A DNA stretch of 48,151 nucleotides. Origin: a virus. Below are positions 11,968-32,675 of the stretch, piece by piece (the stretch's first letter is position 1; every line of letters begins with the position of its first letter). Made by a program: the position numbers and the translations under genes. The stretch lies in IMG/VR virus record IMGVR_UViG_3300047476_000283, positions 1-48,151 of that record; one strand, given 5' to 3'. The notes under the pieces are model-generated. The model did not search any database and had not been told where the DNA came from. It was given only the letters and a program-made list of their open reading frames with translations.

Positions 11968-14900
11968 GCCATATCACCAATTACAATAATCTCATTTGTC
12001 GCTGTGTATACAACTGTTGCTGCGCCATATCGACTGTAAATATTCCCAGTGATTTGATTTGTTGTGTTAAGTTTACTCAGCGCCGCAGTGTTCGATATGT
12101 ACACCTCACCAGCACCTTTTCTGATAACAGTTACAGCAAATCCTGACGTCGTGGCAACATCAAAGGTGCAGGTTGCTGTGGAAGCAGAATTAACCAACAC
12201 AATCTTACCAGCAACATTAGAACCATAGTTTGCGCTAGCAGTGACGGATACGATTGGAGTGTCAAATATATTACCAGTCAATACTGTGTTTTGACTAGAG
12301 AAAATTATATTCGCAATTAGATTGCCGCCACTGACAGATACGTTTTTGGTGACACCATTAGCGACTAACAAGCTTGTGTTGACAGCAAATGTATTTTGTG
12401 CAGCAATAAATGTTAACTGCGAAGAACCGTTAGATTGACCATTATTGTTAAACCAGATTTGATTTGTTGATGTGCCAAATGGTGGTGTTATTAGTTTCCA
12501 ATCCAACCAAGTGTTTGATGCCGCCGCAGTATCACTTCTTCTCAGCCAGATATTTGAAGTTTGTGTGAATCCTAACTGGTATGCAGGACCACCTGACCAG
12601 TCTGTTGTAGTGCCATATGGTCTGAACGTAATTAGACCAAAATATGTACCAGTGTCTAGAGTACTCATTGCTTCGTTGGAAGCATACTTAAAGTCTGCAC
12701 TAAACCTTGCATTGGCCATCGCTGGGCCAGTGTTTACATTTCTTTGGTCTGCAGATAAAATGTAATTTGTTATTGCACCAGAAGTACCAATTATTCCTTG
12801 AACGCCTTGAGAACCAGTTGCACCTTGCGAAGCAGCTGCACCAGCTATTCCTTGAGTGCCCTGAGTTGCTGTGCCAGTGGCGCCCTGAGTGGCAGTACCA
12901 GTTGTTCCCTGAACGCCCTGGGTTCCTGCACCAGTGGCTCCTTGAGCGCCTTGAGCGCCACCACCACCGCCACCAACTACTGTAAATGCAATATTAGCGT
13001 TACCAGCTTGACCAGCACCAACAGAAACTTGTACAGTTGCTGTATTGATAAAATTCAACCGAACATTTGTTTGGATTGATCCACTATTTGCAGAAACAGA
13101 AGATGTGTTCTGGTAATGACCGCCTTGATTGCCGTCAAGCAGATCTGCGTCTAGTCCTGATCCAGCCCCATCGTTATTATTGTGCCACACTGCATTCCAG
13201 CTTCGGTAGTATCCAGCGCCACCGACTTGAGCTGGGTTGCCGCCTCTAAAATACAGATTTGCTGTATTATATGGTATGACCAATTGCGCAATAGTATCAG
13301 ATCCTCTGGAAACTATTACTTGTTGATAGTTGTCAAAAACCGTACCAGTTGGTCCATTGGCCACGTCATTTGCTAACCTATAGAAACCAGATTGAACAAT
13401 CAGATCTAGATTAGCTCCAGTTCCTGGACCACTTCCTGCAAAATTGTATGTTAAATTTGACTTTAGTGGGTATGCGTCTAGTGAAGTTGTTGTTGCATAC
13501 CCAGTTACTATGGCGGAAGTGTTTGCGGTAAATGATACATTAGCGTTTCCAGTCGACCCAGCGCCGACCGTCACATTAATAGTTGCAGTGTTGTTGAAGT
13601 TAACATTAACTTTAGATTGAATCGACCCATTGTTTGCAGAAACCTGAACTCCATTTGCTGCACTATTAATCGCAGGAAGAATGTCAACCCCAGCAACAAT
13701 TAAGTTTGTTGTTACGTTTACGTTGCCCGTTACATGAAGATTAGATGTCGGAGCAGTTGTAAATATTCCAACATTTCCAGTGTGCGCTATTCTAAATCTT
13801 TCAGCATATGCTGGATTAGCAGTTCTATTACCAATAACAAATGGGGCTGTGTATGCACCAGCTGCTGATCCAGCATCTCCAAAATACCAAAGACTGCCAC
13901 TAGGAGCATCATATGCATTATATAAAGCAGGTCTCCCCGCAGTCGGTCCTGCATATGAGATACCCACTATTGTGTTTGGAGTATTTAATGCACCAGAGCT
14001 CGTGTATGATGTTGACAAATTATAGTCATATACGTCTAACGCATATTGAGCTACAGATGTGTTAACTCCTACTCTACGCAAAGATTGATTAACATAAATG
14101 AGGTTGTTCGCAACAGTAATTTGTTGGAAATTGCCGCCTTGCCGCAAATCAAACGAATCTATGACAACTCCACCACCAGCAGATAATGCACCTGAGAGTG
14201 GCGCCCAAGTCGTTTCATACCCAAATTGTCTAGCCCAAGAGTACATATTCGAAGCAATTGCTTGAGTAAAATATACTTCTAGATATTTTGTAGTATTACC
14301 AACATCAGAAGTTATTCTTATCGCTGACCAATAGCCAGCAGAACTAGTATCTGCTGACAATATTCTACTTCTATCAGACGCTGGATCTGCTCCATATGAT
14401 GCTGATAACCGCACATGCAACGTCACAGGTTCAACGATATTACCAGTTGTGTACAAGAAAAACTCAGCCCCACCTCTACCGTTTTCTAAACTATCTGTGG
14501 AACCGATCCTGTACCATCCAGCTGCAGCAACAGTTTGTGCAGTTACATTGCTTCTTTGTACAAATTGAGAACTGTCTAATCCATCTAGCGTGTTAGCTGT
14601 AGTCCAAGAAGCTTCACCAGTACCAACATTAAAAGTTTGGGTTGTTGTTGATGGTATTGTTATCTGACCAGGGATATACTTTAGAGATGCACTGCCAGTG
14701 TCGCTGTTACGAACTGCAAGCAAGATCCAACCTTTTGTTGCGACCCACTCGCTGTTCAAGTAATTGACTATTCTAAATCTAGATTGAGAAGATCCTGTAG
14801 TTGTTCCATCTGGAACAACATAGTACAATGCTTCCCAGGAAGCAAGAGGAACACCATCTGCAGTAACAGCTGCTGTACTAACTCCGCCACCAGAAGGGTA

Positions 14901-15194
14901 ATATACTATTGTTCCGCTGGTTGGACAATTAATGTCAAAATAACCAGAAGCAGCTAATTCTGGTCTTTCTGCAGGAATAACAATGATTCTATTAGACCAT
15001 TTAAGTCTACCAAGTCCTGGACTCCAGGTAACAGTGCCACCACCATTAATCAGCCATTGAGCGTTTGTTGTCTTGTTTGGATCTGGCGCAGCCAAAGTAT
15101 TGGCTTTCCAAGATGCACCATCCCACAACCAGATAGTTTCATCTGATCCCTTAAAATACTGGTTCAGTGTTGGGTTGTCTGGGAAATTAGCCAT
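11964..15194 (-). CDS. Modular tail fibre protein with collagen-like segment and knob-like domains (1076 aa)
   Basis: The N-terminus has FPDNPTLNQYFKGSDETIWLWDGASWKANT, an opening I know from marine phage fibres. Next come repeat-type beta domains including TLDGLDSSQFVQRSN, an intramolecular stretch ERFRIAHTGNVGI..TAPTSNLHVTG, and two copies of the 40-residue SAN..GS module (13524-13656 and 12979-13104). The classic fibre motif GSGLDADLLDGNQGGHY sits near residue 680. A short Gly-x-y collagen segment follows (about residues 740-805), then a pyocin-knob-like region (STLDTGTYFGLITF to NTWLDWKLI). The end is a beta domain (KIVLVNSASTATCTF) typical of trimeric fibre tips. Host-receptor binding is inferred. 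Confidence 0.85.
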   Translation of the reverse strand: MANFPDNPTLNQYFKGSDETIWLWDGASWKANTLAAPDPNKTTNAQWLINGGGTVTWSPGLGRLKWSNRIIVIPAERPELAASGYFDINCPTSGTIVYYPSGGGVSTAAVTADGVPLASWEALYYVVPDGTTTGSSQSRFRIVNYLNSEWVATKGWILLAVRNSDTGSASLKYIPGQITIPSTTTQTFNVGTGEASWTTANTLDGLDSSQFVQRSNVTAQTVAAAGWYRIGSTDSLENGRGGAEFFLYTTGNIVEPVTLHVRLSASYGADPASDRSRILSADTSSAGYWSAIRITSDVGNTTKYLEVYFTQAIASNMYSWARQFGYETTWAPLSGALSAGGGVVIDSFDLRQGGNFQQITVANNLIYVNQSLRRVGVNTSVAQYALDVYDYNLSTSYTSSGALNTPNTIVGISYAGPTAGRPALYNAYDAPSGSLWYFGDAGSAAGAYTAPFVIGNRTANPAYAERFRIAHTGNVGIFTTAPTSNLHVTGNVNVTTNLIVAGVDILPAINSAANGVQVSANNGSIQSKVNVNFNNTATINVTVGAGSTGNANVSFTANTSAIVTGYATTTSLDAYPLKSNLTYNFAGSGPGTGANLDLIVQSGFYRLANDVANGPTGTVFDNYQQVIVSRGSDTIAQLVIPYNTANLYFRGGNPAQVGGAGYYRSWNAVWHNNNDGAGSGLDADLLDGNQGGHYQNTSSVSANSGSIQTNVRLNFINTATVQVSVGAGQAGNANIAFTVVGGGGGGAQGAQGATGAGTQGVQGTTGTATQGATGTATQGTQGIAGAAASQGATGSQGVQGIIGTSGAITNYILSADQRNVNTGPAMANARFSADFKYASNEAMSTLDTGTYFGLITFRPYGTTTDWSGGPAYQLGFTQTSNIWLRRSDTAAASNTWLDWKLITPPFGTSTNQIWFNNNGQSNGSSQLTFIAAQNTFAVNTSLLVANGVTKNVSVSGGNLIANIIFSSQNTVLTGNIFDTPIVSVTASANYGSNVAGKIVLVNSASTATCTFDVATTSGFAVTVIRKGAGEVYISNTAALSKLNTTNQITGNIYSRYGAATVVYTATNEIIVIGDMA

Positions 15195-15202
15195 GTGTTA
15201 TC

Positions 15203-15511
15203 TCAATAATTAGTTGTCGTCCACGCCGACCCGTTCCAGTATTTGATTGGTTTCGTAGTCCATGCTGAACCGTTCCAGTATTTAACTGGCTTTGCTGTCC
15301 AAGCAGCACCATCCCAGTATTTAATTTGTCCAGTTGTTCCAACTATAGCAGCATCAAAAAACCAATCATTCCATATAGTTGGTTGTGCGTAGATTGTATC
15401 AGGATTTATAAATGATTTGTATAGGAGAGGAAACTTTCCTCTCCTACTTGTTCTGTTTCCTCCCAACCATGGAGATCTTAATGGGAAATTACCAAGCCCA
15501 GTAACGGCCAT
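15203..15511 (-). CDS. Small tail-associated protein with three YW(N/D)G-AW repeats
   Basis: The 102-residue protein has an Arg/Gly/Pro-rich N-terminal half (LRSPWLGGNRTSRRGKFPLL) and three tandem 13-residue repeats at the end: IKYWDGAAWTAKP, VKYWNGSAWTTKP, IKYWNGSAWTTTN. This repeat is known from fibre and minor tail proteins of many phages, often as a free C-terminal module. The first gene product residues of the neighbouring 1076-residue fibre carry a related WLWDGASW. The gene holds a perfect 12-base inverted repeat at 15422-15446. Function is not known; a virion surface or attachment role is inferred. Confidence 0.6.
   Translation of the reverse strand: MAVTGLGNFPLRSPWLGGNRTSRRGKFPLLYKSFINPDTIYAQPTIWNDWFFDAAIVGTTGQIKYWDGAAWTAKPVKYWNGSAWTTKPIKYWNGSAWTTTNY
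15422..15446. repeat. Perfect 12-base inverted repeat in the 102-aa gene
   Basis: The arms TAGGAGAGGAAA and TTTCCTCTCCTA are separated by one base, so a hairpin with a loop of about five bases is possible on either strand. It falls in coding sequence for SRRGKFPLL. No T-run follows on the coding strand. Confidence 0.7.
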
Positions 15512-15514
15512 CTT

Positions 15515-16330
15515 TTATCCTTGAGTTTCTACATAATTTCCAAAAAAGTTGGTTGCTGTTGTGGCGGAAGGAAACCAAAGCAACTGTAGCGTACTATTAT
15601 CGTATATTCTTGGCATACCAGAAGTCAATGCATCAATTGCGTTACCAATATTTGCAGCAGTAATTTCTATCTGAGCTATGGGCCTAAACAAAACTAGATG
15701 CATAGTGCCCGAGTTTCTTGTTGCTGATTGTTGAAACGATGTTGGCGCTCTAACACCAACATCTCCAGCTGCCATCGTAAATATTTCAAATGTACCAACT
15801 GCAGGTGAACCAACTCCAGTAAACGTGCCAGTCTGTCCAGTGGTTCCATCTTGGTCTGTGTATGTGAGAGTTACTGTTGGAGTTCCCGCGCCACCTGTGG
15901 CTGACCACTCAATTGCGGCCATAATCCCATCCCCGTTAGTTGAGCCATTTAAGTCTCTAGAGGGTATTGCTGCTGGTGTAATCGCTTGCGCAGCTGTTGA
16001 TGTCACCGACAAGCCACTATTCTGCCACACTCTATCAATTAACCAAAGAACGCCAGGGTTTGACGCGACAAAAGATAACCGACCCAGATGCGCATTTCCG
16101 CTGACTGGATTATTTCTTCTAATTCTGCCGTTAGTACTTGCTAAAGCAGGTGTTACTGCTTCGCCATTAATACCTATAGCAGTTGCAGTTGATGCGCCTG
16201 GATTGCCACCAGCATACCATGGTGTATAACCTCTCATGGCACCAACAGCGGCCATAGTAATCCCAACTTTAGTTATAGGCATAATTGGCTGGAATCCAGC
16301 AATCGCGCCATCAAGAGTAGTAATTGCCAT
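15515..16330 (-). CDS. Phage structural protein of the type found in siphophage tails (271 aa)
   Basis: No enzyme motif is visible. Segments such as VGAMRGYTPWYAGGNPGAST, RRNNPVSGNAHLGRLSFVASNPGVLWLIDRVWQNSGL, PSRDLNGSTNGDGIMAAIEWSATGGAGTPTVTLTYTDQDG and MAAGDVGVRAPTSF resemble, from memory, minor structural proteins of siphophages and prophages of Proteobacteria rather than T4 proteins. It may have been gained from an unrelated phage. The gene starts by TAATG overlap on the stop of the 53-residue gene, so it is part of the fibre operon. Virion location is inferred from context; exact role unknown. Confidence 0.55.
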   Translation of the reverse strand: MAITTLDGAIAGFQPIMPITKVGITMAAVGAMRGYTPWYAGGNPGASTATAIGINGEAVTPALASTNGRIRRNNPVSGNAHLGRLSFVASNPGVLWLIDRVWQNSGLSVTSTAAQAITPAAIPSRDLNGSTNGDGIMAAIEWSATGGAGTPTVTLTYTDQDGTTGQTGTFTGVGSPAVGTFEIFTMAAGDVGVRAPTSFQQSATRNSGTMHLVLFRPIAQIEITAANIGNAIDALTSGMPRIYDNSTLQLLWFPSATTATNFFGNYVETQG

Positions 16331-16491
16331 TATTCAATAACCTCATTCAAATTAGATTCGTGAAAGTCAATATCATCAGCAATTCGCCAAGAACCAGTAT
16401 CTGGATTTTGCGAATGTACGACCCACTCACCAGGATAAAATTCAGCAAATGGCTCTTTGCATGTTACTCTAGAACCGATTCCAATAGCCAT
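16330..16491 (-). CDS. Small hypothetical protein in the fibre region (53 aa)
   Basis: The frame reads MAIGIGSRVTCKEPF, then AEFYPGEWVVHSQNPDTGSWRIAD, and ends in an acidic tail NLNEVIE. It has a strong TTGGAGG ribosome site eight bases before the ATG, and its stop overlaps the next ATG as TAATG, which supports real translation. I do not recognise the family. It contains one Cys and a short beta-rich core with VxxGxW features. It sits between a 54-residue fibre-motif protein and the 271-residue structural protein, so it is likely a small virion or assembly factor. Confidence 0.6.
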   Translation of the reverse strand: MAIGIGSRVTCKEPFAEFYPGEWVVHSQNPDTGSWRIADDIDFHESNLNEVIE

Positions 16492-16505
16492 TATGATCCT
16501 CCAAA

Positions 16506-16670
16506 TTAATTAGTGTCTATCCAGAGATCGTTTACTCTGGGCGACGATGGTTGCGTTGTTCCGACTGTAATCTGAGGAATATTTGGTAATTGAGTTCCTG
16601 ATCTGGAAAAAGCAATGTTTCCAGTGACAACCAAATCTCCAGCGACATTTGTTGATAGTAACTGAGCCAT
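16506..16670 (-). CDS. Small fibre-fragment-like protein (54 aa)
   Basis: The translation is MAQLLSTNVAGDLVVTGNIAF, then SRSGTQLPNIPQITVGTTQ, then PSSPRVNDLWIDTN. The last part matches a motif seen inside many marine phage fibres, where P-S-S-P-x-x-N/G-D-L-W-x-D-T-N links domains, and GDLVVTGNIAF resembles fibre beta repeats. The gene has an ATG, a TAA stop, and only about 14 bases to the following ATG. It may be a stand-alone fibre adaptor or a remnant cut from a larger fibre. The 26-base gap before it contains no full late motif (only CTAAATA). Confidence 0.6.
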   Translation of the reverse strand: MAQLLSTNVAGDLVVTGNIAFSRSGTQLPNIPQITVGTTQPSSPRVNDLWIDTN

Positions 16671-16696
16671 GACCTTATTCCTATTCTATGGTATAT

Positions 16697-17557
16697 TTAG
16701 GCTTCAATGAACTGAGAAGAAACATATGTGCCATTAGCATATAGTTTAATTGCTGCTGTGCTGCCTTCAACAAAATTAGGGGAAGAATATGTTCCATTGG
16801 CATAAAGTTTATTTGTTGCCGAACCTGAAACTTCAACTAATCTGCCGACTTGAACCGCACCATTTGCATACAGCTTCATCTTAATTGATGGTGGTATACC
16901 AGCATCTGCTAATATCTTATATGTTGCTATCGCCAAACGACCATTTGTCGCAGTGGTCAGTGTCCAAGTTGCTGTTTGTGTTCCTATCGCAGATACAGTT
17001 TTATATACTGCCGCACCAAATACTGTTGGAGAAGCTCCGTCCAGATTATCATAAATCGTGGTATATCCAGAAGGAAAGGTTGTTGCCCCAGGATTACCCG
17101 TCGTGGTCAACACAGCAACAACAATTTCGTCTGCTTGGGTAGTTGTTCCAGAAGTAATCGTGTGATTAGTGGTGCTTGTTGCAAGAGCATTTGCGGTTTG
17201 ATCTACTGCACCAAGACCAGACCACTCTTGAATGTCTATCGCCGCACCAGTAACGGTAGGAGTGCTAGGGCTTGTGGAAAGATTCAATACAACTGTAGTA
17301 CTGCCAGAATTAACAACGTCAACGCTAAAGATATAACAGCTTCTGAATAAATCAGTTTCTCTAGATGCATCTTTGTTAGCTGTTGTCCCAGCAATTGTTG
17401 CAGATGTTACTGTTCCGCCGCCGCTACCAAGATTAATAGAAACAGTAACGATAACCTTATTGCCAACAATGAATGCAGAAGATGCATTAACTGTTATTGT
17501 AGACCCAGAGGCTGTTCCAGTAAGCTGACCTGAATCTTGTACAAGAGTGGCTGCCAT
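16697..17557 (-). CDS. Ig-like/beta-sandwich virion protein with three KLYANG repeats (286 aa)
   Basis: Residues 1-220 form a Ser/Thr/Val-rich beta-sandwich of the type found in phage and prophage structural proteins: SGSTITVNASSAFIVGNKVIVTVSI, IDIQEWSGLGAVDQTA, and ATWTLTTATNGRLAIATYKI. The C-terminal 60 residues carry three repeats starting KLYANG (about residues 227-286), each followed by a short variable strand ending in a branched residue plus E. Such tandem YANG repeats are a common C-terminal cassette in marine phage fibres. Glycan or surface binding is inferred. It follows the giant collagen-like fibre by three bases. Confidence 0.65.
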   Translation of the reverse strand: MAATLVQDSGQLTGTASGSTITVNASSAFIVGNKVIVTVSINLGSGGGTVTSATIAGTTANKDASRETDLFRSCYIFSVDVVNSGSTTVVLNLSTSPSTPTVTGAAIDIQEWSGLGAVDQTANALATSTTNHTITSGTTTQADEIVVAVLTTTGNPGATTFPSGYTTIYDNLDGASPTVFGAAVYKTVSAIGTQTATWTLTTATNGRLAIATYKILADAGIPPSIKMKLYANGAVQVGRLVEVSGSATNKLYANGTYSSPNFVEGSTAAIKLYANGTYVSSQFIEA

Positions 17558-17560
17558 AAA

Positions 17561-20500
17561 TTATGCCTGATACACAAAGTCCAGGGAAGTTGACGAAGCA
17601 TTCCAAGTAATATAGAACTTGGAGTTTGCTACTGTATTTGAGTGCTCGCCACCAAAGTATATAGAATTTGCGTTTGAAACTCTAACATTACCATCAACGC
17701 TAACCAACTTCGAAGTTGTGTTCCAAGTAAGTTGGGAGTCGCCAACAGCAGCTGAAGTCGCATTAGCATACAGTATCTGGGTATTTCCTGCGCTAACAGT
17801 CCCACCCCCACCACCAGATGGTCCTTGAACGCCTTGAGTTCCAGTACCAGTTGTTCCCTGAGTGCCGTCTGTTCCCTGTGTACCATTGGTTCCTTGAGTA
17901 CCTAGAATTCCTTGAGTACCGTCAGTTCCTTGCGTTCCTATAGTGCCTTGTGTTCCGTTAGTTCCCTGGGTTCCAAGAGTTCCTTGTGTACCTAGAGTTC
18001 CCTGGGTTCCATTGGTTCCTTGTGTACCAGTTCCACCTTGTGTACCATCTGTTCCCTGAGTTCCAAGAGTTCCCTGAGTTCCAAGAGTTCCTTGTGTGCC
18101 ATCAGCGCCTTGAGTGCCTAGAATTCCCTGAGTACCAAGAGTTCCTTGTGTACCATTGGTTCCTTGTGTACCAGTTCCACCTTGTGTTCCTAGAATTCCT
18201 TGTGCGCCGTCAGTACCTTGTGTTCCCAGAATTCCTTGAGTTCCCTGTGTACCGTCAGTTCCCTGTGTACCTAGAATTCCTTGAGTTCCCTGAGTTCCTA
18301 GAATTCCCTGAGTACCTTGCGTACCATTAGTTCCTTGAGTTCCTAGGACTCCTTGAGTTCCCTGCGTACCTAGAATTCCTTGCGTTCCCTGAGTTCCTAG
18401 AATTCCCTGAGTACCTTGCGTACCGTCAGTTCCCTGAGTTCCATTGGTTCCTTGAGTACCAGTTGTTCCCTGAGTACCGTCTGTTCCCTGAGTTCCTAGG
18501 ACTCCTTGCGTTCCCTGGGTTCCATTGGTTCCCTGGGTTCCTAGAATTCCTTGAGTTCCCTGAGTTCCTAGAATTCCCTGAGTACCTTGTGTTCCTAGAA
18601 TTCCCTGAGTACCTTGCGTACCGTCAGTTCCCTGAGTTCCATTGGTTCCTTGGGTTCCGTTAGTTCCCTGAGTTCCCAGAGTTCCCTGGGTTCCTAGAGT
18701 TCCTTGAGTGCCTAGAGTTCCCTGGGTTCCAGTGGAACCTTGAGTACCGTCAGTTCCTTGAGTACCATCTGTTCCCTGAGTTCCAACAACTCCCTGGGTT
18801 CCTAGAGTTCCCTGAGTTCCAAGAGTTCCCTGGGTTCCAGTGGAACCTTGAGTACCGTCAGTTCCTTGAGTACCATCTGTTCCCTGAGTGCCATTTGTTC
18901 CTTGCGTGCCATTGGTTCCCTGGGTTCCTAGAGTTCCTTGTGTACCTAGAGTTCCCTGTGTACCGTCTGTTCCCTGAGTTCCTAGGACTCCTTGAGTTCC
19001 CTGAGTTCCTAGGACTCCTTGAGTTCCCTGAGTTCCTAGAATTCCCTGAGTACCTTGCGTACCATTGGTTCCCTGAGTTCCTAGGATTCCCTGAGTACCT
19101 TGCGTACCATTGGTTCCTTGAGTTCCTAGGACTCCTTGAGTTCCCTGTGTACCGTCTGTTCCCTGTGTACCATTGGTTCCTTGAGTACCAGTTCCACCTT
19201 GGGTTCCTACAGTTCCCTGCGCGCCAGTAGCTCCAGTTAATCCTCTTGGCCCAGATCCACCCGATGGTGTGTCTACCAGTGCAATATAGTCGATATTTGT
19301 CTGATGCGATACGCTACCCGCATTTGAGTGGTTTAGTCGTAATAGAACTTTTCCAGAATTAATGTATGGGGCGGGTGAAAGTACTGCTAGTTCAAACTGA
19401 TAATAACCAACCAATCCGTTGTAATATCCAATAGAATCCCAAGACGAAGTGTTGTTGTTATACAGCAAGACATAGATTGTATGGCCAGAATTAGTTGTAT
19501 ACTGTATATTCAAGTCCACTCTAGTGAACGTAGTTACAGAAGTAAAGTCAACGTCGACGTTCCAAGCAGGAGTGACACCGCTACCGTCTGTGAAGATAAA
19601 TTGATTGCCGTCACCGAAAGTTTGTATATCAGACAAACCGCCTGAAACATATACACCACCAGTAAGAGCAACAGAGTTTGCGCTATATGTTGTAGTCGCA
19701 GGTGGAGGACCTTCAATTCCTTGTACACCTTGCGTTCCTTGTACACCTTGCGGGCCAATTAGTGCTGGATTACTATTATCTACTGTAAACGAAATATTCG
19801 CATTGCTGTCAATACCAGAACTGACTGAAACTATAATTGTATTGGTGTTGACAAAGTTTAGCTGTTTATTTGTTAGAGTAGATCCACTGTTAGCAGAAAC
19901 TTTAACAGTATTTCCTGCAGCAGGAATCTTATTGACTTCAGTCTCAAGTCCAGTAATCGCGCCGATTGGATGTTGGTCTGCTGAATCTCTACCCGTCAAT
20001 CCTCCGTGGGAGGCTGCTGAGACAATAGAGGCAGAAGATGCAACCTTACTCGTCACCTTACGAATGGCTGAGATAGCGACTTTAGGATAGTTGTTACTAT
20101 ACGACGAGCTCGTTTTGAGAACAATCTGATACATAAAGACTTGTTCAGCAAAATTCAATCCATATTCTTGGAATTCTTCTGCATAAGCATCATCGACACT
20201 GGCGTGCGATGCTCTACCCATCACAAGCTTGACTGGATAACGAATATCATTGGTCGCAATCAACCAGTAGGTGATGTATTCACCTTCATTGGCATCGACC
20301 AATGAACCGCTTCCTCCAGTAACAGAATTATATCTTGCTAGAGAAGTACCTGGAACCCAAGGAATTGTATTCGGCACAGTATTAGCATAATACTGACCGT
20401 CGAGATATAGTACTGGTAGATTTGCTGATGGCGAAAGAGTCTGATCATAGTCAACAGCAGCATTTGGTGTTGCCGCATTTGTTATTGTATGCAACAGATC

Positions 20501-22075
20501 TTCATCTGCAATCAACAGCGGAGTTCCGACCTCAACAGTTACGTTGTTATCGTCATTCGTTGTTACATTCGCAGCACCACCAGATCTCCAAATTGTACCA
20601 ACATTTAGATGCTGGTTGGTGTGCCAAGTGGTGTCGCGCTTGTGTCCATGGCGCTCATCGCCAACAATAAGACCCTGGCCAGTGGATGCGTTGTAATAGA
20701 TGTATGAGACGATGGTGTCTTCAGCAAAATTTGGAACTGATCCACCCTCAACGAGATTCTCAGTATCTGGATCAATTCTAATAAATCTTGCGCCAGAAGT
20801 ATTGTTTATTGTAATTGATTTGGAAGTCGTAATTGTGTGTAGAACACCATGGTGATAGTATGTCCAAGAAGAAGACGTTGGTGCGATAGTATATTCTCTT
20901 GTACTATCATTGAATACTATATTTGCTGCTGATCGATCAACAACACCATGCACATCTCCAGTAGTGTTGGCAATTTCAACTAGAGTTGTATACTGTGGGT
21001 GGGGATCTGACGCCGCTTCGTGGGCTGCTATATTTGCTTCAGAACCCTGAATACCTTGAACACCTTGCGTACCGTTAGTTCCCTGTGTTCCAGTGGTACC
21101 TTGAACACCTTGCGTACCATTAGTTCCCTGTGTTCCTAGAATTCCCTGAGTACCTTGCGTACCGTCAGTTCCCTGGGTTCCACCAACTCCCTGGGTTCCT
21201 TGGGTTCCGTTAGTTCCCTGCGTACCTAGAACTCCCTGAGTTCCCTGAGTGCCCAGAATTCCCTGAGTTCCTTGAGATCCTAGAATTCCCTGAGTTCCTT
21301 GGGTTCCGTTAGTTCCCTGCGTACCACCAAGTCCTTGTGTTCCTAGAACACCCTGAGTTCCTTGTGTGCCATCTGTTCCCTGAGTGCCGTCTGTTCCTTG
21401 AGTACCACTAACTCCTTGAGTACCAAGAGTTCCTTGTGTACCAAGAGTTCCTTGTGTGCCATCTGTTCCCTGAGTGCCAGTCCCACCCTGAGCGCCATCT
21501 GTTCCTTGAGTGCCACCAACTCCCTGAGTACCATCTGTTCCTTGAGTACCACTAACTCCTTGAGTACCAAGAGTTCCTTGTGTACCATTGGTTCCTTGAG
21601 TACCAGTTCCGCCCTGAGTACCATTGCTTCCTTGCGTACCAGTTCCACCCTGAGTGCCGTCTGTTCCCTGAGTACCATCTGTTCCCTGAGTTCCTACAAC
21701 TCCTTGGGTTCCTAGAGTTCCTTGAACGCCAGTTCCACCTTGAGTACCACCAACTCCCTGGGTTCCGTTGGTTCCCTGAGTACCAGTGCCAGTAGCGCCT
21801 TGAGTGCCGTTGGTTCCTTGGGTACCATCAATACCTTGAGTTCCGCTAGTTCCTTGTGTACCAGTGCCAGTAGTACCTTGGGTTCCGTTGGTTCCTTGTG
21901 TACCATCAGTACCTTGAGTTCCGCTAGTTCCTTGTGTACCAGTGCCAGTAGTACCTTGTGCACCAGTTGCACCTTGAGTGCCGCTGCCGCCTCCGCCGCC
22001 ACCAGCTGGCCCCTGCACTCCTTGAGCGCCAGGCGGAAGGCTACTTTGTAGTATATCTTGGAGTGTAATGGACAT
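17561..22075 (-). CDS. Giant collagen-like tail fibre protein (1504 aa)
   Basis: After a short N-terminal helix (MSITLQDILQSSLPPG) comes a first Gly-x-y tract of about 110 triplets (about residues 16-344). Next is a globular region (about 345-790) with the metal-type motif AHEAASDPHPQY, a beta-barrel, GGLTGRDSADQHPIGAITGLE, and one SAN..GS module (about 721-766). A beta-sandwich follows (about 790-940; TTFTRVDLNIQY, INSGKVLLRLNHSN). A second tract of about 160 triplets (about 942-1420) ends in GGGGG and a beta tail LTWNTTSKLVSVDGNVRVSN. Almost every other triplet is Gly-Thr-Gln and proline is nearly absent. This predicts a long trimeric rod with two heads. Receptor contact is inferred. Confidence 0.85.
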   Translation of the reverse strand: MSITLQDILQSSLPPGAQGVQGPAGGGGGGSGTQGATGAQGTTGTGTQGTSGTQGTDGTQGTNGTQGTTGTGTQGTSGTQGIDGTQGTNGTQGATGTGTQGTNGTQGVGGTQGGTGVQGTLGTQGVVGTQGTDGTQGTDGTQGGTGTQGSNGTQGGTGTQGTNGTQGTLGTQGVSGTQGTDGTQGVGGTQGTDGAQGGTGTQGTDGTQGTLGTQGTLGTQGVSGTQGTDGTQGTDGTQGTQGVLGTQGLGGTQGTNGTQGTQGILGSQGTQGILGTQGTQGVLGTQGTNGTQGTQGVGGTQGTDGTQGTQGILGTQGTNGTQGVQGTTGTQGTNGTQGVQGIQGSEANIAAHEAASDPHPQYTTLVEIANTTGDVHGVVDRSAANIVFNDSTREYTIAPTSSSWTYYHHGVLHTITTSKSITINNTSGARFIRIDPDTENLVEGGSVPNFAEDTIVSYIYYNASTGQGLIVGDERHGHKRDTTWHTNQHLNVGTIWRSGGAANVTTNDDNNVTVEVGTPLLIADEDLLHTITNAATPNAAVDYDQTLSPSANLPVLYLDGQYYANTVPNTIPWVPGTSLARYNSVTGGSGSLVDANEGEYITYWLIATNDIRYPVKLVMGRASHASVDDAYAEEFQEYGLNFAEQVFMYQIVLKTSSSYSNNYPKVAISAIRKVTSKVASSASIVSAASHGGLTGRDSADQHPIGAITGLETEVNKIPAAGNTVKVSANSGSTLTNKQLNFVNTNTIIVSVSSGIDSNANISFTVDNSNPALIGPQGVQGTQGVQGIEGPPPATTTYSANSVALTGGVYVSGGLSDIQTFGDGNQFIFTDGSGVTPAWNVDVDFTSVTTFTRVDLNIQYTTNSGHTIYVLLYNNNTSSWDSIGYYNGLVGYYQFELAVLSPAPYINSGKVLLRLNHSNAGSVSHQTNIDYIALVDTPSGGSGPRGLTGATGAQGTVGTQGGTGTQGTNGTQGTDGTQGTQGVLGTQGTNGTQGTQGILGTQGTNGTQGTQGILGTQGTQGVLGTQGTQGVLGTQGTDGTQGTLGTQGTLGTQGTNGTQGTNGTQGTDGTQGTDGTQGSTGTQGTLGTQGTLGTQGVVGTQGTDGTQGTDGTQGSTGTQGTLGTQGTLGTQGTLGTQGTNGTQGTNGTQGTDGTQGTQGILGTQGTQGILGTQGTQGILGTQGTNGTQGTQGVLGTQGTDGTQGTTGTQGTNGTQGTDGTQGTQGILGTQGTQGILGTQGTQGVLGTQGTNGTQGTQGILGTQGTQGILGTQGTDGTQGTQGILGTQGTDGAQGILGTQGGTGTQGTNGTQGTLGTQGILGTQGADGTQGTLGTQGTLGTQGTDGTQGGTGTQGTNGTQGTLGTQGTLGTQGTNGTQGTIGTQGTDGTQGILGTQGTNGTQGTDGTQGTTGTGTQGVQGPSGGGGGTVSAGNTQILYANATSAAVGDSQLTWNTTSKLVSVDGNVRVSNANSIYFGGEHSNTVANSKFYITWNASSTSLDFVYQA
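17815..19250 (-). repeat. Second Gly-Thr-Gln triplet tract of the 1504-residue fibre
   Basis: About 1.4 kb of imperfect 9-base and 18-base tandem repeats encode collagen-like triplets. GTQ alternates with a variable triplet (GTN, GTD, GTL, GIL, GVL, GST). Codons differ from copy to copy, so protein repeat is stronger than DNA repeat. Recombination between copies could alter rod length. Confidence 0.85.
21044..22030 (-). repeat. First Gly-Thr-Gln triplet tract of the 1504-residue fibre
   Basis: About 1 kb of collagen-like coding repeats with several register breaks of the form GTTGTGTQG near the start. It is separated from the second tract by about 1.8 kb of globular coding sequence. Confidence 0.85.
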
Positions 22076-22086
22076 CTATTTTATTT

Positions 22087-22242: not shown

Positions 22243-22270
22243 AAAAAACTCCTAATTAATACAAGCTTAC

Positions 22271-22278
22271 TATTTATT
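22271..22278 (-). promoter_or_regulatory. Near-consensus late promoter (AATAAATA) before the 51-aa gene and giant fibre
   Basis: AATAAATA overlaps the TAA stop of the 65-residue gene (GAA TAA ATA) and is 29 bases before the 51-residue ATG. It has one mismatch to the T4 late consensus. It could drive the giant fibre. Confidence 0.5.
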
Positions 22279-22471: not shown

Positions 22472-22481
22472 TTTGAATTCC

Positions 22482-23768
22482 TTATGCTAACAATCCTGTA
22501 TCTCTCAATGCTTTAACAACTTGCGCGAGCGTATATCCGTCGAAAGTCGATGCACTATTTACTGTCGTTCCGCTATTCTCAGTAAATGTAGCTGATGAAA
22601 TGCCTGTAGTTGGCTGCACAATTGGCGTAGCGTTCCAGAAAGCTAGTTTTTGGCTTGTCGCTGTGCCGATCTTTGAACCAGTAGATGAGCCAAATAGAAG
22701 ATTTCTTGCGTCAGCGATCTGTAGATTTCCGCGAGTATTTCCCAAAATAACATCACCAGCTGTTCCCGATCCAGTAGCCTCGCCGCCATCTAAATAAAGC
22801 GCACCACCATTATTGTTTCCAGCCGCGCCCTTTCCTGCCATGATGGACATACTGTGTCCATCACCTGTGTATCCACCATAAGCATCTTTTGCGCTAGGTC
22901 GCATAATGTGGGTGCGTGTCGTGCTAGTTCTTGCCTCTGGTCCAAATTCAACCGCGCCGTTAGGAGAGTTTTGCGTTGATATGCTTGCGCTGCTGCCACT
23001 TCCGAAGTTAACTCGCGCCCCTGCGCCGCAAATTAGGCTTGGTGATGTACTTCCTAAAACCAAACAAGATCTTAGAGTGGTTTCTGTAGATACCCACTGT
23101 TGCGAGCTTGTGGAAAACAACTTCACTGCGCTACCAGTTCCAGTTCCCGCCTTTTCCATACCAATCTCAAATACATTAGAATTCCAACGTAAAAAGCCAC
23201 GCCCATAGTTGCTGTCGTCTGAATATGTGTTGTAGACTCTAAAAGTCTGTGGATTAGTCCCAACGCGCTGCGCCAGTGTGTTGGCAGCATCAGCGTATAG
23301 TGCAACTTCGGTTCCATAACTGTTGGAAATACCAATATAAAAAGGTTGTTGAGCAATAACTGCTGCGCTAGTAACTCTTAGCCTACCATTTAATCCCAAT
23401 CCGTTGGTGTTAGTCGGAACGCTTATATCTAATTGCGGATAACCTGCACTAGTGCCGCGAGCAGTAGTGATGCTTGTGGGGGTGATAACTAGATTAGACC
23501 CATTATCTGCTCGACTGCCAACAGTTATGTTTCCATTTTTCGCAACGCCAAAAACACCTATATTGTTGACTTGAAAATCTGATATTAGTGAAGACCCACC
23601 ACTAGCAGTATCAGTTGCATTTAATTTTAGTCCAGTAAACGTCACGCCAGAATTGTTCCAAGTTTGAGAAAGGTCTAATACTGGCGATGATGTGTTCACT
23701 ATGCCGCTGTCAAGCTTCAGCTTTCCTATAGTAGAACTTGATCCTGGCCATCCAACTTGAGGATACAT
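22482..23768 (-). CDS. Tail fibre-like beta-repeat protein (428 aa)
   Basis: The protein is beta-rich with repeat-type stretches such as FGVAKNGNITVGSRADNGSN, FLRWNSNVFEIGMEKAGTG, ALYLDGGEATGSGTAGDVILGN and GNLQIADARNLLFGSSTGSKIG. The end, ATSQKLAFWNATPIVQPTTG followed by GYTLAQVVKALRDTGLLA, is a signature I know from marine phage structural proteins and metagenomic fibre genes. No collagen tract is present. The start overlaps the stop of the 129-residue gene (TAATG). It probably forms a rigid fibre or decoration rather than an enzyme; no catalytic motif is seen. Confidence 0.7.
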   Translation of the reverse strand: MYPQVGWPGSSSTIGKLKLDSGIVNTSSPVLDLSQTWNNSGVTFTGLKLNATDTASGGSSLISDFQVNNIGVFGVAKNGNITVGSRADNGSNLVITPTSITTARGTSAGYPQLDISVPTNTNGLGLNGRLRVTSAAVIAQQPFYIGISNSYGTEVALYADAANTLAQRVGTNPQTFRVYNTYSDDSNYGRGFLRWNSNVFEIGMEKAGTGTGSAVKLFSTSSQQWVSTETTLRSCLVLGSTSPSLICGAGARVNFGSGSSASISTQNSPNGAVEFGPEARTSTTRTHIMRPSAKDAYGGYTGDGHSMSIMAGKGAAGNNNGGALYLDGGEATGSGTAGDVILGNTRGNLQIADARNLLFGSSTGSKIGTATSQKLAFWNATPIVQPTTGISSATFTENSGTTVNSASTFDGYTLAQVVKALRDTGLLA

Positions 23769-24157
23769 TAGAAGTCTCCACCAAGAGCGTAAACATTAGT
23801 TGCCTGAGATATTGTTGTGGTCACACCTAAAACACAAGAAGTATTTGGCAGTATCAGATTTGAATACCCTGTTGAGTTTTTATTTGCCTTGACGGTTGCG
23901 CTACTTGTTGCTGCTGAAATAGAAATTTGATCGATCAACTTCCATGTAGATCCGCCATCAGTAGACAAGAAAATATTGACCAATGCTGCGGCTGATGTAG
24001 CAGCGCATTGTGCAACTATTTCTAGAACTCTGGTTCCAGTGCTCGCTCCAGTTATCAAGGAAGTGATTGTTCCAGATCCGTCCAGATTCAGGTTAGCTGT
24101 GCTCACTGTGACGATTTGAGCGCGAGGCGTATTGATAAATTGTGGTGCGCTTGACAT
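23768..24157 (-). CDS. Small virion structural protein (129 aa)
   Basis: The pattern SSAPQFINTPRAQIVTVSTANLNLDGSGTITSLIT, then GTRVLEIVAQCAATSAAALVNIFLSTDGGSTWKLIDQISI, and an ending VYALGGDF matches a small virion protein family I have seen in many unrelated tailed phages and prophages. The fold looks all-beta. It is coupled with the 428-residue fibre by a TAATG overlap and lies ten bases after the 699-residue fibre. The exact virion position is unknown. Confidence 0.65.
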   Translation of the reverse strand: MSSAPQFINTPRAQIVTVSTANLNLDGSGTITSLITGASTGTRVLEIVAQCAATSAAALVNIFLSTDGGSTWKLIDQISISAATSSATVKANKNSTGYSNLILPNTSCVLGVTTTISQATNVYALGGDF

Positions 24158-24167
24158 TTGTTAACCT

Positions 24168-26267
24168 TTAGAAATATAGAGAACTTAAATATAAGCTTGA
24201 TTGCGAAGAGGCAAAGCTCACATTCGCATTTCCGCTTATGCCCGATTCCACAGATACTGTTACTGTGGAAGTATTAACAAAATTGATTCCGTTAGCAGTA
24301 ATTGTCGAACCGCTATTCGCAGATACTGGGAATGTTACAATACCACCGCCGCCTGATGCGCCCTGAACACCTTGAACGCCTCTGGCGCCAGTTGTTGCAG
24401 TAACTTCCCACGTGCTTCCATCGTATATGAACTCTACAGTAATTCCTGCTAAATCCAATAATACATCGTCAGCATAACCATCTATTGTTGAGCCGTTTCT
24501 AGCAACTGTAAGATTAGTGATATACCAACTAGCACCATCAGATATTTGAACATAATCGCCAGCAGTTGGGGTTGCTGGTAATGTGATTGTGAAAGTGCCG
24601 CCTGATGTGTCAGCAATTAACCGATCGCCATCTACAGCTGTATAATTTGAAGTTTTTACTGCCCAGCGATTTAATGCACCAATAGCACCTTGAGTACCAG
24701 CACCAGTTGCGCCTTGGGTACCAGTGCCAGTAGCGCCTTGAGTACCAGTGCCAGTAGTGCCTTGATTGCCATTGGTTCCTTGGGTTCCATGCGTTCCTTG
24801 GGTTCCTAGAGTTCCCTGAGTACCATCAGTACCTTGAGTTCCTAAGATACCCTGCGTACCTAGAGTTCCTTGAGTACCATTGGTTCCTTGGGTTCCGTTA
24901 GTTCCTTGGGTTCCCAAAACACCCTGTGTACCTAGAGTTCCTTGTGTACCATTAGTACCCTGAGTACCATCAGTTCCTTGAGTTCCTAGAACTCCTTGAG
25001 AACCTATGGTGCCTTGAATGCCTACAGTTCCTTGTGTGCCGTCCGTCCCCTGAGTACCAGTTGCACCTTGAGTTCCAGCTCCTGTTGCACCTTGGGCGCT
25101 AGTTGATCCTTGAGATCCTTGAGTTCCTTGCGACCCCAGATCACCAGTTCTGGTGTTCATCAGAACATAATTAAGGCCAGAACTAAAATTACCATTAGGA
25201 TTTGATGACGTTACATAGGTGACGTCAATGTAATATACGCCACTAAAAGGACCTGTAACACTGTCTATTCTATAGGTCGCAAAATCACTATTATTCGATG
25301 CTGCGCCTTGAATGAAAAGGTAACCCTTAACAGTGCTTGTGCTATCGTCTAATGAAAGTAACCAATTACTCTGATTCACACCAAATGAATCTGTTGAGTT
25401 GAAGTAAAATCTTCCAATGTTGATCAGTTGAGAAAAGTTTGCGCCAAAGTTTCCAGAAGTTGGAGTAGAGCTACCACTAAAGGAATAATTAACACCCGCT
25501 CTGTCACCAGAAACACCAGTCTGCCCTGTGGTGCCTTGAACACCATTGGTTCCTTGGGTTCCGTTAGTTCCCTGGGTTCCTTGGGTTCCGACAGCACCTT
25601 GAGTTCCAGCACCTGTTGCACCTTGGCTTCCAGTTGGTCCTTGCGCTCCCTCGTTTCCCTGTGAACCAGCTGAACCAAGATCTCCAGTTCTGGTGAAGGT
25701 CACATCAAGTACAGCGTCTAAACTAAAAACTGTAATTGTGGAAATTAAATTATCAACTGGGATTATAAAATATCCCAAATCTTCATTAAGGTAATCAGTT
25801 ATAGAATATGTGGCTGTTTGCAGCGTATTGGCTGCATTTGTTAACTTGATAGTGCCTTTGATTTGAGATGTAGATTCGTCAGTATACCGAATGTACTGCG
25901 CCATGTCAGCCGAATAATAATCAAACGGACTCATGTACAATACTGTGGCGTCAGCTAATACAGAATTGTTGAGCTTGACTTTACCGTATCCAGGATCACT
26001 GTTGAGGGTATCTGTGGAGAATTGATATGTGTAATATTCTCCGCGAGATGCTCCTATAGTGCCTTGGGTTCCTTGAATTCCAAGAGTTCCCTGAACACCT
26101 TGAGTGCCAGTTGCACCTTGTGGTCCAGTTGTTCCTTGAATTCCTTGAGTTCCAGTAGAGCCTGCAGGTCCTGCGGCACCACTCTTAATGGAGACTTTAC
26201 CAACCTCTGGGTTGTTGTTTACATTAACAGAACCAACAGTATTTTTGTTTTTGATCTCAACTTTCAT
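24168..26267 (-). CDS. Modular collagen-like tail fibre (699 aa)
   Basis: The protein alternates collagen-like linkers with globular units. After a short beta start (MKVEIKNKNTVGSVNVNNNP) there is a triplet linker, then two copies of a roughly 125-residue domain ending (T)RTGDLGS (about 73-197 and 253-376). A longer triplet tract follows (about 377-535). The next domain WAVKTSNYTAVDGDRLIADTSGGTF to EFIYDGSTWEVTATTG is a common fibre tip or shaft domain in marine phages. The last 50 residues hold the SAN..GS module. The start overlaps the stop of the 110-residue gene by ATGA. Receptor binding is inferred. Confidence 0.85.
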   Translation of the reverse strand: MKVEIKNKNTVGSVNVNNNPEVGKVSIKSGAAGPAGSTGTQGIQGTTGPQGATGTQGVQGTLGIQGTQGTIGASRGEYYTYQFSTDTLNSDPGYGKVKLNNSVLADATVLYMSPFDYYSADMAQYIRYTDESTSQIKGTIKLTNAANTLQTATYSITDYLNEDLGYFIIPVDNLISTITVFSLDAVLDVTFTRTGDLGSAGSQGNEGAQGPTGSQGATGAGTQGAVGTQGTQGTNGTQGTNGVQGTTGQTGVSGDRAGVNYSFSGSSTPTSGNFGANFSQLINIGRFYFNSTDSFGVNQSNWLLSLDDSTSTVKGYLFIQGAASNNSDFATYRIDSVTGPFSGVYYIDVTYVTSSNPNGNFSSGLNYVLMNTRTGDLGSQGTQGSQGSTSAQGATGAGTQGATGTQGTDGTQGTVGIQGTIGSQGVLGTQGTDGTQGTNGTQGTLGTQGVLGTQGTNGTQGTNGTQGTLGTQGILGTQGTDGTQGTLGTQGTHGTQGTNGNQGTTGTGTQGATGTGTQGATGAGTQGAIGALNRWAVKTSNYTAVDGDRLIADTSGGTFTITLPATPTAGDYVQISDGASWYITNLTVARNGSTIDGYADDVLLDLAGITVEFIYDGSTWEVTATTGARGVQGVQGASGGGGIVTFPVSANSGSTITANGINFVNTSTVTVSVESGISGNANVSFASSQSSLYLSSLYF

Positions 26268-26596
26268 CTAGTAACCTGTGGTGTTACTGTGATAATACCT
26301 TCTATCACGCGTGTGGTCACCCCAGAGGCAGTGGTCATTTTGACGTCATAGAGGTATCTTCCAGCCTTTATGTTTGCCGTGTTGGCAGCAGTTACTGATA
26401 ACTTAACATTCCCATTAGGAGCATCAACTATTGTAGTTGTGATATTCGCTGTTACGTTTGTCGAATAATATGATTTTCTTATCTGAGAAGAAAACAAAAA
26501 GTTGGTGACATTAATAGCAGAACCATCATCATTTGTCAGGTCAATAGAAGTCTCGAATGTCGTGCCTTGGTCTAGTGTAAGTTCTGCGTATGCCAT
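26264..26596 (-). CDS. Ig-like small virion protein (110 aa)
   Basis: This 110-residue beta-sandwich begins MAYAELTLDQGTTFETSIDLTNDDGSAINVTN and has SVTAANTANIKAGRYLYDVKMTTASGVTTRVIEGIITVTP. The order (quasi-symmetric strands, then RYLYDV..T..G...RV.EG...V.P) is typical of small phage surface or baseplate-accessory proteins common in cyanophage genomes. A strong TTAGGAG ribosome site and a late-promoter-like motif lie upstream. It may bind the baseplate or fibre base. Exact role unknown. Confidence 0.7.
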   Translation of the reverse strand: MAYAELTLDQGTTFETSIDLTNDDGSAINVTNFLFSSQIRKSYYSTNVTANITTTIVDAPNGNVKLSVTAANTANIKAGRYLYDVKMTTASGVTTRVIEGIITVTPQVTR

Positions 26597-26621
26597 GACA
26601 GGCTCCTAATGTATTATACAG

Positions 26622-26629
26622 TATTTATT
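26622..26629 (-). promoter_or_regulatory. Near-consensus late promoter (AATAAATA) before the 110-aa gene
   Basis: AATAAATA lies in the 36-base gap between the 154-residue and 110-residue genes, 26 bases before the ATG. It has one mismatch to the T4 late consensus. Confidence 0.5.
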
Positions 26630-26632
26630 AGA

Positions 26633-27097
26633 TTATGCTGTGGCAGAAACAAAAAAGCTTATTGTTTTGGATGTCAAATCAACACCAGCAGAATTTCTTA
26701 TTCTCAATGTAGAATTCACAGTATCAGTTTGAGTGCCGTTTCCTGCGTTTGAGAATATGGTTAATGACCACGATTGTGAAGAGTTTAATTGAACAGCTGA
26801 CCCTGTAGTTCCAAAAGTAAATGTGCCAACACTAGGATTATCCATATAAGCATAGTAATTGGCAACAGAACCAGAACCAGTCAACCAATTAAATGTGTAT
26901 TCTTCCAAAGCGCCATTAAGGCGCTCTAGAATATATTTACCTGTTCCGTCTGCATAAAGTTCAACCGCTACTGTTGCTGAAGAAGAGCCTCCTGGAAAAC
27001 TATCTGTGGCTGACAGATTAATCTGGCCAGATCCACCATAGTCCAATAGAAATGCAGAACTAGAAGTCCCAAAAAGCATTTGTTGCATATTAGCCAT
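26633..27097 (-). CDS. Beta-rich small virion protein (154 aa)
   Basis: I place the start at 27097 (MANMQQMLFGTSSSAFLLD), two bases after the stop of the 724-residue fibre; an upstream in-frame ATG at 27148 would lie inside the fibre gene and add a Cys/His-rich leader unlike the rest. Features include SATVAVELYADGTGKYILERLNG, YTFNWLTGSGSVANYYAYMDN and an end RIRNSAGVDLTSKTISFFVSATA. This resembles, from memory, small tail proteins with a YE..WLTG core in other phages. Its role in the virion is not known. Confidence 0.65.
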   Translation of the reverse strand: MANMQQMLFGTSSSAFLLDYGGSGQINLSATDSFPGGSSSATVAVELYADGTGKYILERLNGALEEYTFNWLTGSGSVANYYAYMDNPSVGTFTFGTTGSAVQLNSSQSWSLTIFSNAGNGTQTDTVNSTLRIRNSAGVDLTSKTISFFVSATA

Positions 27098-27099
27098 AA

Positions 27100-29274
27100 T
27101 TAGGTCAATCCTGCTCCTGAAGCAACAAAGGTGTTGGTGGCAACGCAAAGTATTGTTGCCAACCCATTAGCAAACAGAGTTCTGTTACCAGTAGAGGCAG
27201 ATGCTGCCAACTTGAGAGTTACGCCAGTTCCCTGGGTTATTGTTTGATTCGAAGATGAGTTATTGAATATAGTAACAGCATCTCCAACAGCAAATACGCT
27301 TTGAGGAACAGTCACACCACCAGTTGTTATGCTAATGTGTTTTCCAGCATCAGATGCGATTAGCTGATAGGAACTGGTTTTGGCGTTTTGAGGAATTCCA
27401 AGATATCCAGCGCCTTGGATGCCTTGAGTTCCGTTTGTTCCTTGGACGCCTTGAGTTCCGTTTGTTCCTTGAACACCTTGAGTACCAGCACCAGTAGCAC
27501 CTTGAGTCGCTGTTCCAGTCGTGCCTTGAGTGCCTTGAGTTGCTGTTCCAGTTGCACCTTGGGTTGCTGTTCCAGTGATGCCTTGAGTACCTTGAGTACC
27601 AGTGCCAGTTGCACCTTGAGCACCAGTGCCAGTAGCGCCTTGTGTACCAGTGCCAGTTGCACCTTGAGTACCAATGTCACCAGTTCTTGTAAACTGTACA
27701 CTTAAAGAAGCAGCATTAAGAGGAACTGCTCCAGAAATAGCAGAAACTGGCACTCTATAGTGTGTCGTCTGATTGATTACTGCACCAGTGACAGCAAAAA
27801 TTGTACTGATACCAGTATCTAGATTGTATATTACCAAATATCCCTTTGATGAATTTGTGCTATCATCCCAGGTGGCAAACCAGCTAGTCAAAGAACTGCC
27901 GTTGGTGTCGACATTATCAATTTGGAGTTCGGTTACTGAGCCAAACGTGCCATTATTATATGTTATTTTACCGCTACCTGGGTCTGTTGTACCACCAGAA
28001 TTAACTGTTGAGTTGAACGAATATGGAACGCCACCGCGTTGTCCAACTGTTCCCTGGGTTCCTGTTGTACCTTGAGTTGCTGCACCAGTAGTACCCTGGT
28101 TACCAAGTATACCCTGAACACCTTGAGTTCCAGCACCAATTGTTCCTTGGGTTCCGTTGGTTCCTGTTGATCCTTGCGTTCCTTGAGTTCCAGTAGCGCC
28201 CTGAGCACCACCACCTCCACCACCAACTACTGTGAAAGCAACGTTCGCATTACCAGTTAAACCAGCAGCAACAGAAACTTGTACAGTTGCTGTATTGATG
28301 AAGTTTAGTTGCTTCGCTGTTTGCAACGAACCGTTATTTGCAGAAACAGCAACAGCATTGGCACCTGAGTTTGCTGCGGCATATGCCGCTGTCGCAGTAT
28401 CAAACGCCAACTTGACTGCAGTAGGTGTAGCAGCATTGATTGAGCTTGTTGTTACTACTGAATCTGATAGGTTAGCTGCTGTTATTAGTGTCGAATATGC
28501 AGTAGAAATATCATTAGCAGTGACTCTCCAAACACCAGGAGATGATGCGAAAGATAGTGACGCATTACCTGCTGGGCTTGTTGCGCCTCTAGCGACTTCT
28601 AGATAACCGTCGCCCAATCCAGCTAGACCAGCTCGTAGCAGATAAACATCTGACGCTGATGTTGATGGCGAGGAAATACCAGTCGTCACAACTAGAGAAT
28701 CAACAGTAAGTGCAGTGAAATTGGCTGTTGCGCTGGAGATTCTAGAAGCCGAGATGTTGCCGAATACTGTGATATTGCTGGTGACGTTGACGTTTTTAGA
28801 AGCCGATAGAGTCTGTATTGTCAGGACGTTTGCAATATTCAGTATCAGTCCGTTATTCGCATATGTGCCAGTGGTCTCAATATAGCCATTAGCGTTAATA
28901 TTGGCTGCAGAAATAAAGTTATTGTTGTATAACAATCTAGAGCGTAGGCTACCAGCCACAATAAACTGGCCTGTAGTATTTGAGAAGTTGACAGCGCCAC
29001 TGTTCGATCTGATATATGCATCGCCACCATCTTGATCTAGATTCTTGATGCTCATCACATCGCCGACACGAGCGTTCGCCGTAACGGTCAGCATAGTTCC
29101 ACTAGTGCATGATAATAACACATAACCAGAGGTGATGGTCACGTTTCCTTTTGGTTTCGTGAATTCGCCTCTAGCTATCTCATTAGTGTCATTAACTGTT
29201 AAGTTCGTCTGAACTCTCCAGTTGTCAAACGTATTGGCTGTGGTTACTTGCGATATGTTTGATAAGCTTGCCAT
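27100..29274 (-). CDS. Modular collagen-like tail fibre (724 aa)
   Basis: The first 130 residues (SNISQVTTANTFDNWRVQTNLTVNDTNEIARGEF and GDVMSIKNLDQDGGDAYIRSNSGAVNFSN) are typical of the virion-attaching end of T4-like marine fibres. A SAN..GS module (about 308-350) ends in poly-Gly, then a collagen linker, one RTGD domain (about 409-533) and a second collagen linker. The last hundred residues (PQNAKTSSYQLIASDAGKHISITTGGVTVP to GLATILCVATNTFVASGAGLT) are a very widespread fibre C-terminal domain. It starts four bases after the 78-residue gene. Likely a main tail fibre; ligand unknown. Confidence 0.88.
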   Translation of the reverse strand: MASLSNISQVTTANTFDNWRVQTNLTVNDTNEIARGEFTKPKGNVTITSGYVLLSCTSGTMLTVTANARVGDVMSIKNLDQDGGDAYIRSNSGAVNFSNTTGQFIVAGSLRSRLLYNNNFISAANINANGYIETTGTYANNGLILNIANVLTIQTLSASKNVNVTSNITVFGNISASRISSATANFTALTVDSLVVTTGISSPSTSASDVYLLRAGLAGLGDGYLEVARGATSPAGNASLSFASSPGVWRVTANDISTAYSTLITAANLSDSVVTTSSINAATPTAVKLAFDTATAAYAAANSGANAVAVSANNGSLQTAKQLNFINTATVQVSVAAGLTGNANVAFTVVGGGGGGAQGATGTQGTQGSTGTNGTQGTIGAGTQGVQGILGNQGTTGAATQGTTGTQGTVGQRGGVPYSFNSTVNSGGTTDPGSGKITYNNGTFGSVTELQIDNVDTNGSSLTSWFATWDDSTNSSKGYLVIYNLDTGISTIFAVTGAVINQTTHYRVPVSAISGAVPLNAASLSVQFTRTGDIGTQGATGTGTQGATGTGAQGATGTGTQGTQGITGTATQGATGTATQGTQGTTGTATQGATGAGTQGVQGTNGTQGVQGTNGTQGIQGAGYLGIPQNAKTSSYQLIASDAGKHISITTGGVTVPQSVFAVGDAVTIFNNSSSNQTITQGTGVTLKLAASASTGNRTLFANGLATILCVATNTFVASGAGLT

Positions 29275-32659: not shown

Positions 32660-32675
32660 ATTATACTACCTTAAA

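Follow-up and report, generated by a model that had tools for sequence, protein, structure and literature searches.

A recurrent module of about 41 residues in phage fibre proteins, probably a trimeric connector

What is the short module that recurs five times in the fibre genes of an uncultured phage, and what does it do there? The window that raises this question, by which we mean the whole stretch of DNA analysed, is an IMG/VR virus record of 48,151 bases. Its source is a T4-like aquatic phage, and its gene set is a T4-like structural block with the following landmarks.

43425-45485 and 36832-38415: baseplate wedge
9663-10541: neck protein (Hc2)
6639-8267: terminase
4861-6597: sheath
2638-4215: portal

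The protein encoded at 36832-38415 has its nearest relatives in Pelagibacter and cyanobacterial T4-like phages. The fibre genes of the window occupy the interval from the wedge genes to the neck genes, which in T4 holds genes 9-12 and wac. Among their neighbours, a small gene at 15203-15511 (minus strand) carries at its C-terminus three tandem repeats of an 11-residue, KYWNGSAWTTKP-like unit, with a Trp-rich tail, and the gene at 16697-17557 (minus strand) ends in three KLYANGTY(x)n units that recall the Trp-rich repeats next door. Two adjacent genes at 29495-36821 (minus strand) match separate parts of phrog_358 (2056 positions), 32676-36821 aligning with positions 6-1116 and 29495-32659 with positions 1319-1590, as though a protein that is one long chain elsewhere were split here.

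The first-pass annotation had described five copies of the pattern SAN-x-GS-x7-NF-x-NT-x-T-x2-V-x-V-x2-G-x2-[GS]NAN-x2-F in four fibre genes. All five match this pattern exactly, on the minus strand of fibre genes A (27100-29274), B (24168-26267), C (17561-22075) and D (11964-15194, two copies), and neither a six-frame pattern search nor a profile search returned a sixth copy in the window. The copies have 18 invariant columns, and the SAN module, about 41 residues long, is a genuine domain. The copies and their flanking elements are as follows, with the 37-residue core of each copy in brackets.

28366..28425, minus strand: predicted helix PTAVKLAFDTATAAYAAANS, directly upstream of copy A (AF2 helix 5-24, pLDDT up to 92)
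28231..28353, minus strand: module copy A, VAVSANNGSLQTAKQLNFINTATVQVSVAAGLTGNANVAFT, in fibre gene A; exact pattern, HMM 61 bits (core 28234-28344)
28207..28230, minus strand: VVGGGGGG hinge after copy A, from translation
28033..28209, minus strand: collagen-like tract after copy A (Pfam Collagen, residues 356-414, E=0.0011, below cut-off)
24327..24386, minus strand: collagen/poly-Gly tract ARGVQGVQGASGGGGIVTFP upstream of copy B, from translation
24213..24326, minus strand: module copy B, in fibre gene B; exact pattern, HMM 57 bits (core 24213-24323)
19784..19906, minus strand: module copy C, in fibre gene C; exact pattern, HMM 58 bits (core 19787-19897)
19709..19756, minus strand: short collagen tract GPQGVQGTQGVQGIEG after copy C, from translation
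13527..13649, minus strand: module copy D1, the first in fibre gene D; exact pattern, HMM (core 13530-13640)
12981..13097, minus strand: module copy D2, the second in fibre gene D; exact pattern, HMM, DNA alignment (core 12984-13094)
12957..12980, minus strand: VVGGGGGG hinge after copy D2, identical in protein to the copy A hinge, from translation

Copy B lies about 14 codons ahead of the gene B stop, in the position of a C-terminal cap. The gene C protein matches Pfam Collagen at E=7.7e-92, and no heptads or collagen adjoin copy D1.

A profile built from the five copies and then iterated found about 470 copies in 146 of 269 loci from two scans of viral contigs, with 1-20 copies per fibre-like ORF, mostly one or two. 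At E<0.01 there were 494 matches in real ORFs and none in reversed or shuffled ones. Across the family N37 is invariant and N6, N17, F18, N20 and F40 nearly so; T21 is a further fixed point, and V or I at positions 24, 26, 28 and 38 alternates with polar residues. The fibre ORFs of two loci (L039 and L059) run to at least 2,691 aa, with about 15-20 copies alternating with Phage_fiber_2-like and heptad segments. Module copies were present in all 38 contigs tested, 12 of which carry a T4-type portal, among them every one of the five that exceed 130 kb. Since the contigs lacking a portal are shorter fragments, the module is likely confined to T4-like phages, although this falls short of proof. 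Searches of 50,697 GenBank phages and 84,980 prokaryote genomes did not detect it: tblastn with four different module queries gave no match in the GenBank phages, and a genome scan with an alignment of seven module sequences gave none either. In a local tblastn test at the same database size, a good single query found about 230 of the roughly 255 known copies; low sensitivity is therefore not the main cause of the GenBank blank.

No named domain in the libraries searched covers these copies. Searches with isolated SAN modules returned no covering family from Pfam, NCBIfam or PHROG and no PDB sequence, and profiles of SAN, LNF and DEGT (the latter two families are described below) found only chance matches among PDB sequences. 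Phage_fiber_2 (PF03406) has a weak match in gene A (residues 269-301, E=0.0026, below cut-off) whose end overlaps the helix PTAVKLAFDTATAAYAAANS, but the module starts at residue 308, and this domain thus adjoins copy A rather than covering it. Matches to FloA, Big_7 and similar Pfam families were single, weak, scattered and below cut-off, and were set aside. In this respect the earlier description of a shared structural domain without a name is supported.

The module does not stand alone. On the evidence of profile comparison, the SAN module is a branch of a wider, unnamed hairpin family with the motif xGTLxGTRxxLNFIEGxNVTxTxxDDxANxRVNxTI (LNF). The lead was an LNFIEG... motif of phage fibres, and it was afterwards tested with profiles. 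LNF occurs in viral contigs, in the tail fibre gp047 of the cultured cyanophage S-CBS4 and in fibre-like proteins of Acidobacteria. An iterated LNF profile absorbed SAN copies, which made it circular, and the comparison was redone with LNF loci only. In hhalign the two families align over 41 nearly gapless columns with a probability of 65-82%, a score reached by none of 200 column shuffles. SAN copies make up 33 of the 40 outside matches of the LNF-only HMM at E<1; conversely, the SAN HMM finds LNF in register at E=0.003-0.08, whereas controls at E<1 gave none in reversed and at most two in shuffled sequences. SAN carries SANxGS, NT after NF, and GNAN, where LNF has GTR ahead of LNF and DDxAN-RVN in the last hairpin, and it therefore forms a separate branch. 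Modelled by AF2 from an alignment that contained some SAN rows, an LNF copy shows the last hairpin of the SAN model at matching positions, and its first hairpin is clear. In contig G039 (L172, L270, L272), LNF copies follow AxAN heptads through an ANTV-type junction and precede a poly-Gly tail, as SAN copies do. By eye, the middle part of gene C (17561-22075, minus strand) resembles a domain in an ORF of L293, where an LNF module stands further downstream.

A second unnamed motif of cyanophage fibres, DEGTxLTTxVxSINFVGxGVTATxxGxxVTVTI (DEGT), resembles SAN in length and strand-like pattern and occurs in the same fibres, but its profile comparison with the module was not significant (0.9%) and we rejected it as a relative. 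DEGT occurs in fibre proteins of four loci (L024, L025, L027, L067), has 266 relatives in viral contigs and no Pfam match, and is also present in GenBank cyanophages and Methylophilales phages.

The sequence context of the module points to its role. Its frequent adjacency to poly-Gly or collagen, as first described, is borne out for four of the five window copies, but not as a general rule: a Gly run or collagen follows 34% of copies family-wide, compared with 16% of random positions. Because copy B follows collagen rather than preceding it, a single fixed role at the start of collagen is ruled out. An upstream alanine-rich heptad repeat (AYxQANx) accompanies 63% of copies as against 31% of random positions; a recognisable heptad helix is absent from about a third of copies. 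Typically, alanine heptads lead in fixed phase through '..NTVxV' into the module, and behind it comes poly-Gly, collagen, a new set of heptads or a further domain. The heptad phase was examined in 72 sequences, picked by the presence of QAN-like motifs and clustered below 71% identity: it is held for 42 residues (six heptads), Ala occupying the a/d spacing (phases 0 and 4) while Tyr, Gln and Asn keep to one phase apiece. The chi-square for Tyr phase (434, 6 df) overstates independence, because sequences within one protein are related. Pfam Alanine_zipper weakly resembles 22 of 95 flanks. Given this fixed phase, the coiled coil appears to enter the module unbroken, and an alanine heptad core beside collagen points to trimers; together these make the strongest case that the module has a structural role in a threefold assembly.

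Structure prediction is consistent with such a role. An AF2 model of gene A residues 280-357, run as a single chain with 95 relatives, has a helix at 5-24 and a hairpin at 52-58/64-70 (mean pLDDT 82.6, pTM only 0.49). The predicted hairpin is amphipathic, with L16, F18, V24, V26, V28, V38 and F40 on a single hydrophobic face, and on so small a domain this suggests burial against other chains, as in an obligate oligomer. Foldseek searches with the module models, including a BFVD fold search, returned no significant structural match.

We therefore read the module as a trimeric beta collar or connector of homotrimeric phage fibres that keeps the three chains in register, at a probability of about two in three. 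The trimerisation or linker role first proposed is thus the best reading, in view of the phased alanine heptads, the collagen and Phage_fiber_2 neighbours and the amphipathic hairpin. Three chains would reach the module as an alanine-core coiled coil; every chain would contribute the strands of its module, and the hydrophobic faces would pack round the threefold axis as a beta collar. This collar may lock the register of the chains at helix-to-beta or helix-to-collagen transitions and hand them on to a poly-Gly hinge and collagen triple helix, to another coiled coil or to another beta domain; at a C-terminus it would act as a cap. Functional parallels exist. In E. coli prophage collagen-like fibres, coiled-coil (PCoil) and PfC domains flanking collagen, in the order coiled coil-hinge-collagen, have been shown to trimerise (PMC3368898), although no sequence relation between PfC/PCoil and the SAN module was found. 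The neck domains of trimeric autotransporter adhesins (YadA, Hia) are likewise short coiled coil-to-beta connectors (PMC2597055), but have no sequence or significant structural match to the module.

A sharper form of the same explanation would make the module a divergent Trp-ring domain of these adhesins, an interleaved three-chain beta-prism shared with phage fibres by common descent. The published Trp-ring structure is an interleaved prism with hairpin-strand-hairpin order, comprising a beta1-2 hairpin, beta3 and a beta4-5 hairpin (PMC2483945, PMC2597055). Trp-ring domains (PF22414; Hia, Hsf, BadA) resemble the module in having 37-50 residues, many copies per fibre and adjoining coiled coils, and may also have in common with it a hydrophobic-x-Phe in the middle strand and the order of elements: the LNF model has two predicted hairpins around LNF, while the SAN model has only short bridges for the first. 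The invariant V-x-F of Hia strand 3, with an aromatic residue 21 residues on (PMC2597055), parallels [LI]-N-F18 and F40, 22 residues on. All three PF22414 matches in 67 viral contigs fall on SAN or LNF modules, scoring 24.7 and 17 bits on LNF copies and 14 bits on a SAN copy (residues 501-539 of the L049 ORF), but every score lies under the 27-bit cut-off, loose matches occur in 7 of 14 control genomes and most SAN modules have no PF22414 match. Foldseek placed Trp-ring structures of Hsf, Hia and AtaA at or near the top of the PDB ranking (5lnl for SAN; 3emi, 5lnl and 1s7m for LNF), albeit at E of at least 0.5, and the module profiles matched no PDB sequence. The eponymous Trp is absent, neither module nor upstream heptads having a conserved Trp, and the SAN and LNF modules belong to phage fibres rather than outer-membrane adhesins. 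The absent Trp and the scores below cut-off argue against Trp-ring membership: a remote kinship between the SAN module and the adhesin domain is possible, but that the module is a divergent Trp-ring is less likely than not. We regard it as doubtful that SAN and LNF together represent the Trp-ring in phages, in which case phage fibres and adhesins would have inherited a single interleaved trimeric beta fold, along with alanine coiled coils, from a common ancestor.

Could the module instead be mainly a recombination joint, i.e. a stretch of DNA and protein conserved for the shuffling of fibre segments, with little structural role? Module copies do occur in many contexts, and in a DNA alignment copies A and D2 have in common a 31-nt identical run and the same poly-Gly/AQGA tail (VVGGGGGGAQGA), a sign of within-genome exchange, while their outer flanks differ. 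The remaining nine pairs, however, are only 50-68% identical in DNA, with different codons at most shared residues. Overall, the five copies are 51-76% identical in protein and 50-75% in DNA, and with codons mostly different outside the A-D2 pair they are not recent duplicates of each other. Moreover, invariant residues are kept across distant phages, which indicates selection at the protein level, and a joint of this kind is an unlikely account of the module. It is still less probable that the module serves to bind receptors or sugars: its location in fibre proteins, near the C-terminus in gene B, would suit binding, but it is tiny, conserved rather than hypervariable, present in up to 20 copies per chain and usually internal, with stalk segments following. 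Convergent, S/T/N/V-rich low-complexity beta sequence with no homologous domain behind it would account for the composition, which is biased to S, T, N, V and A, yet is barely credible given the absence of profile matches at E<0.01 in reversed or shuffled ORFs and the invariance or near-invariance of N17, F18 and N37.

Overall, this analysis names a recurrent building block in the fibres of abundant, uncultured T4-like phages, whose current annotation is 'tail fibre' or 'collagen-like' only. A profile of the module would supply domain boundaries within these very long, repetitive proteins. If the module does set register as proposed, designers of coiled coils or collagens would also gain a compact trimerising tag of 41 residues. 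Should the likeness to the Trp-ring prove true, it would become possible to test whether phage fibres and bacterial adhesins descend from a common source.
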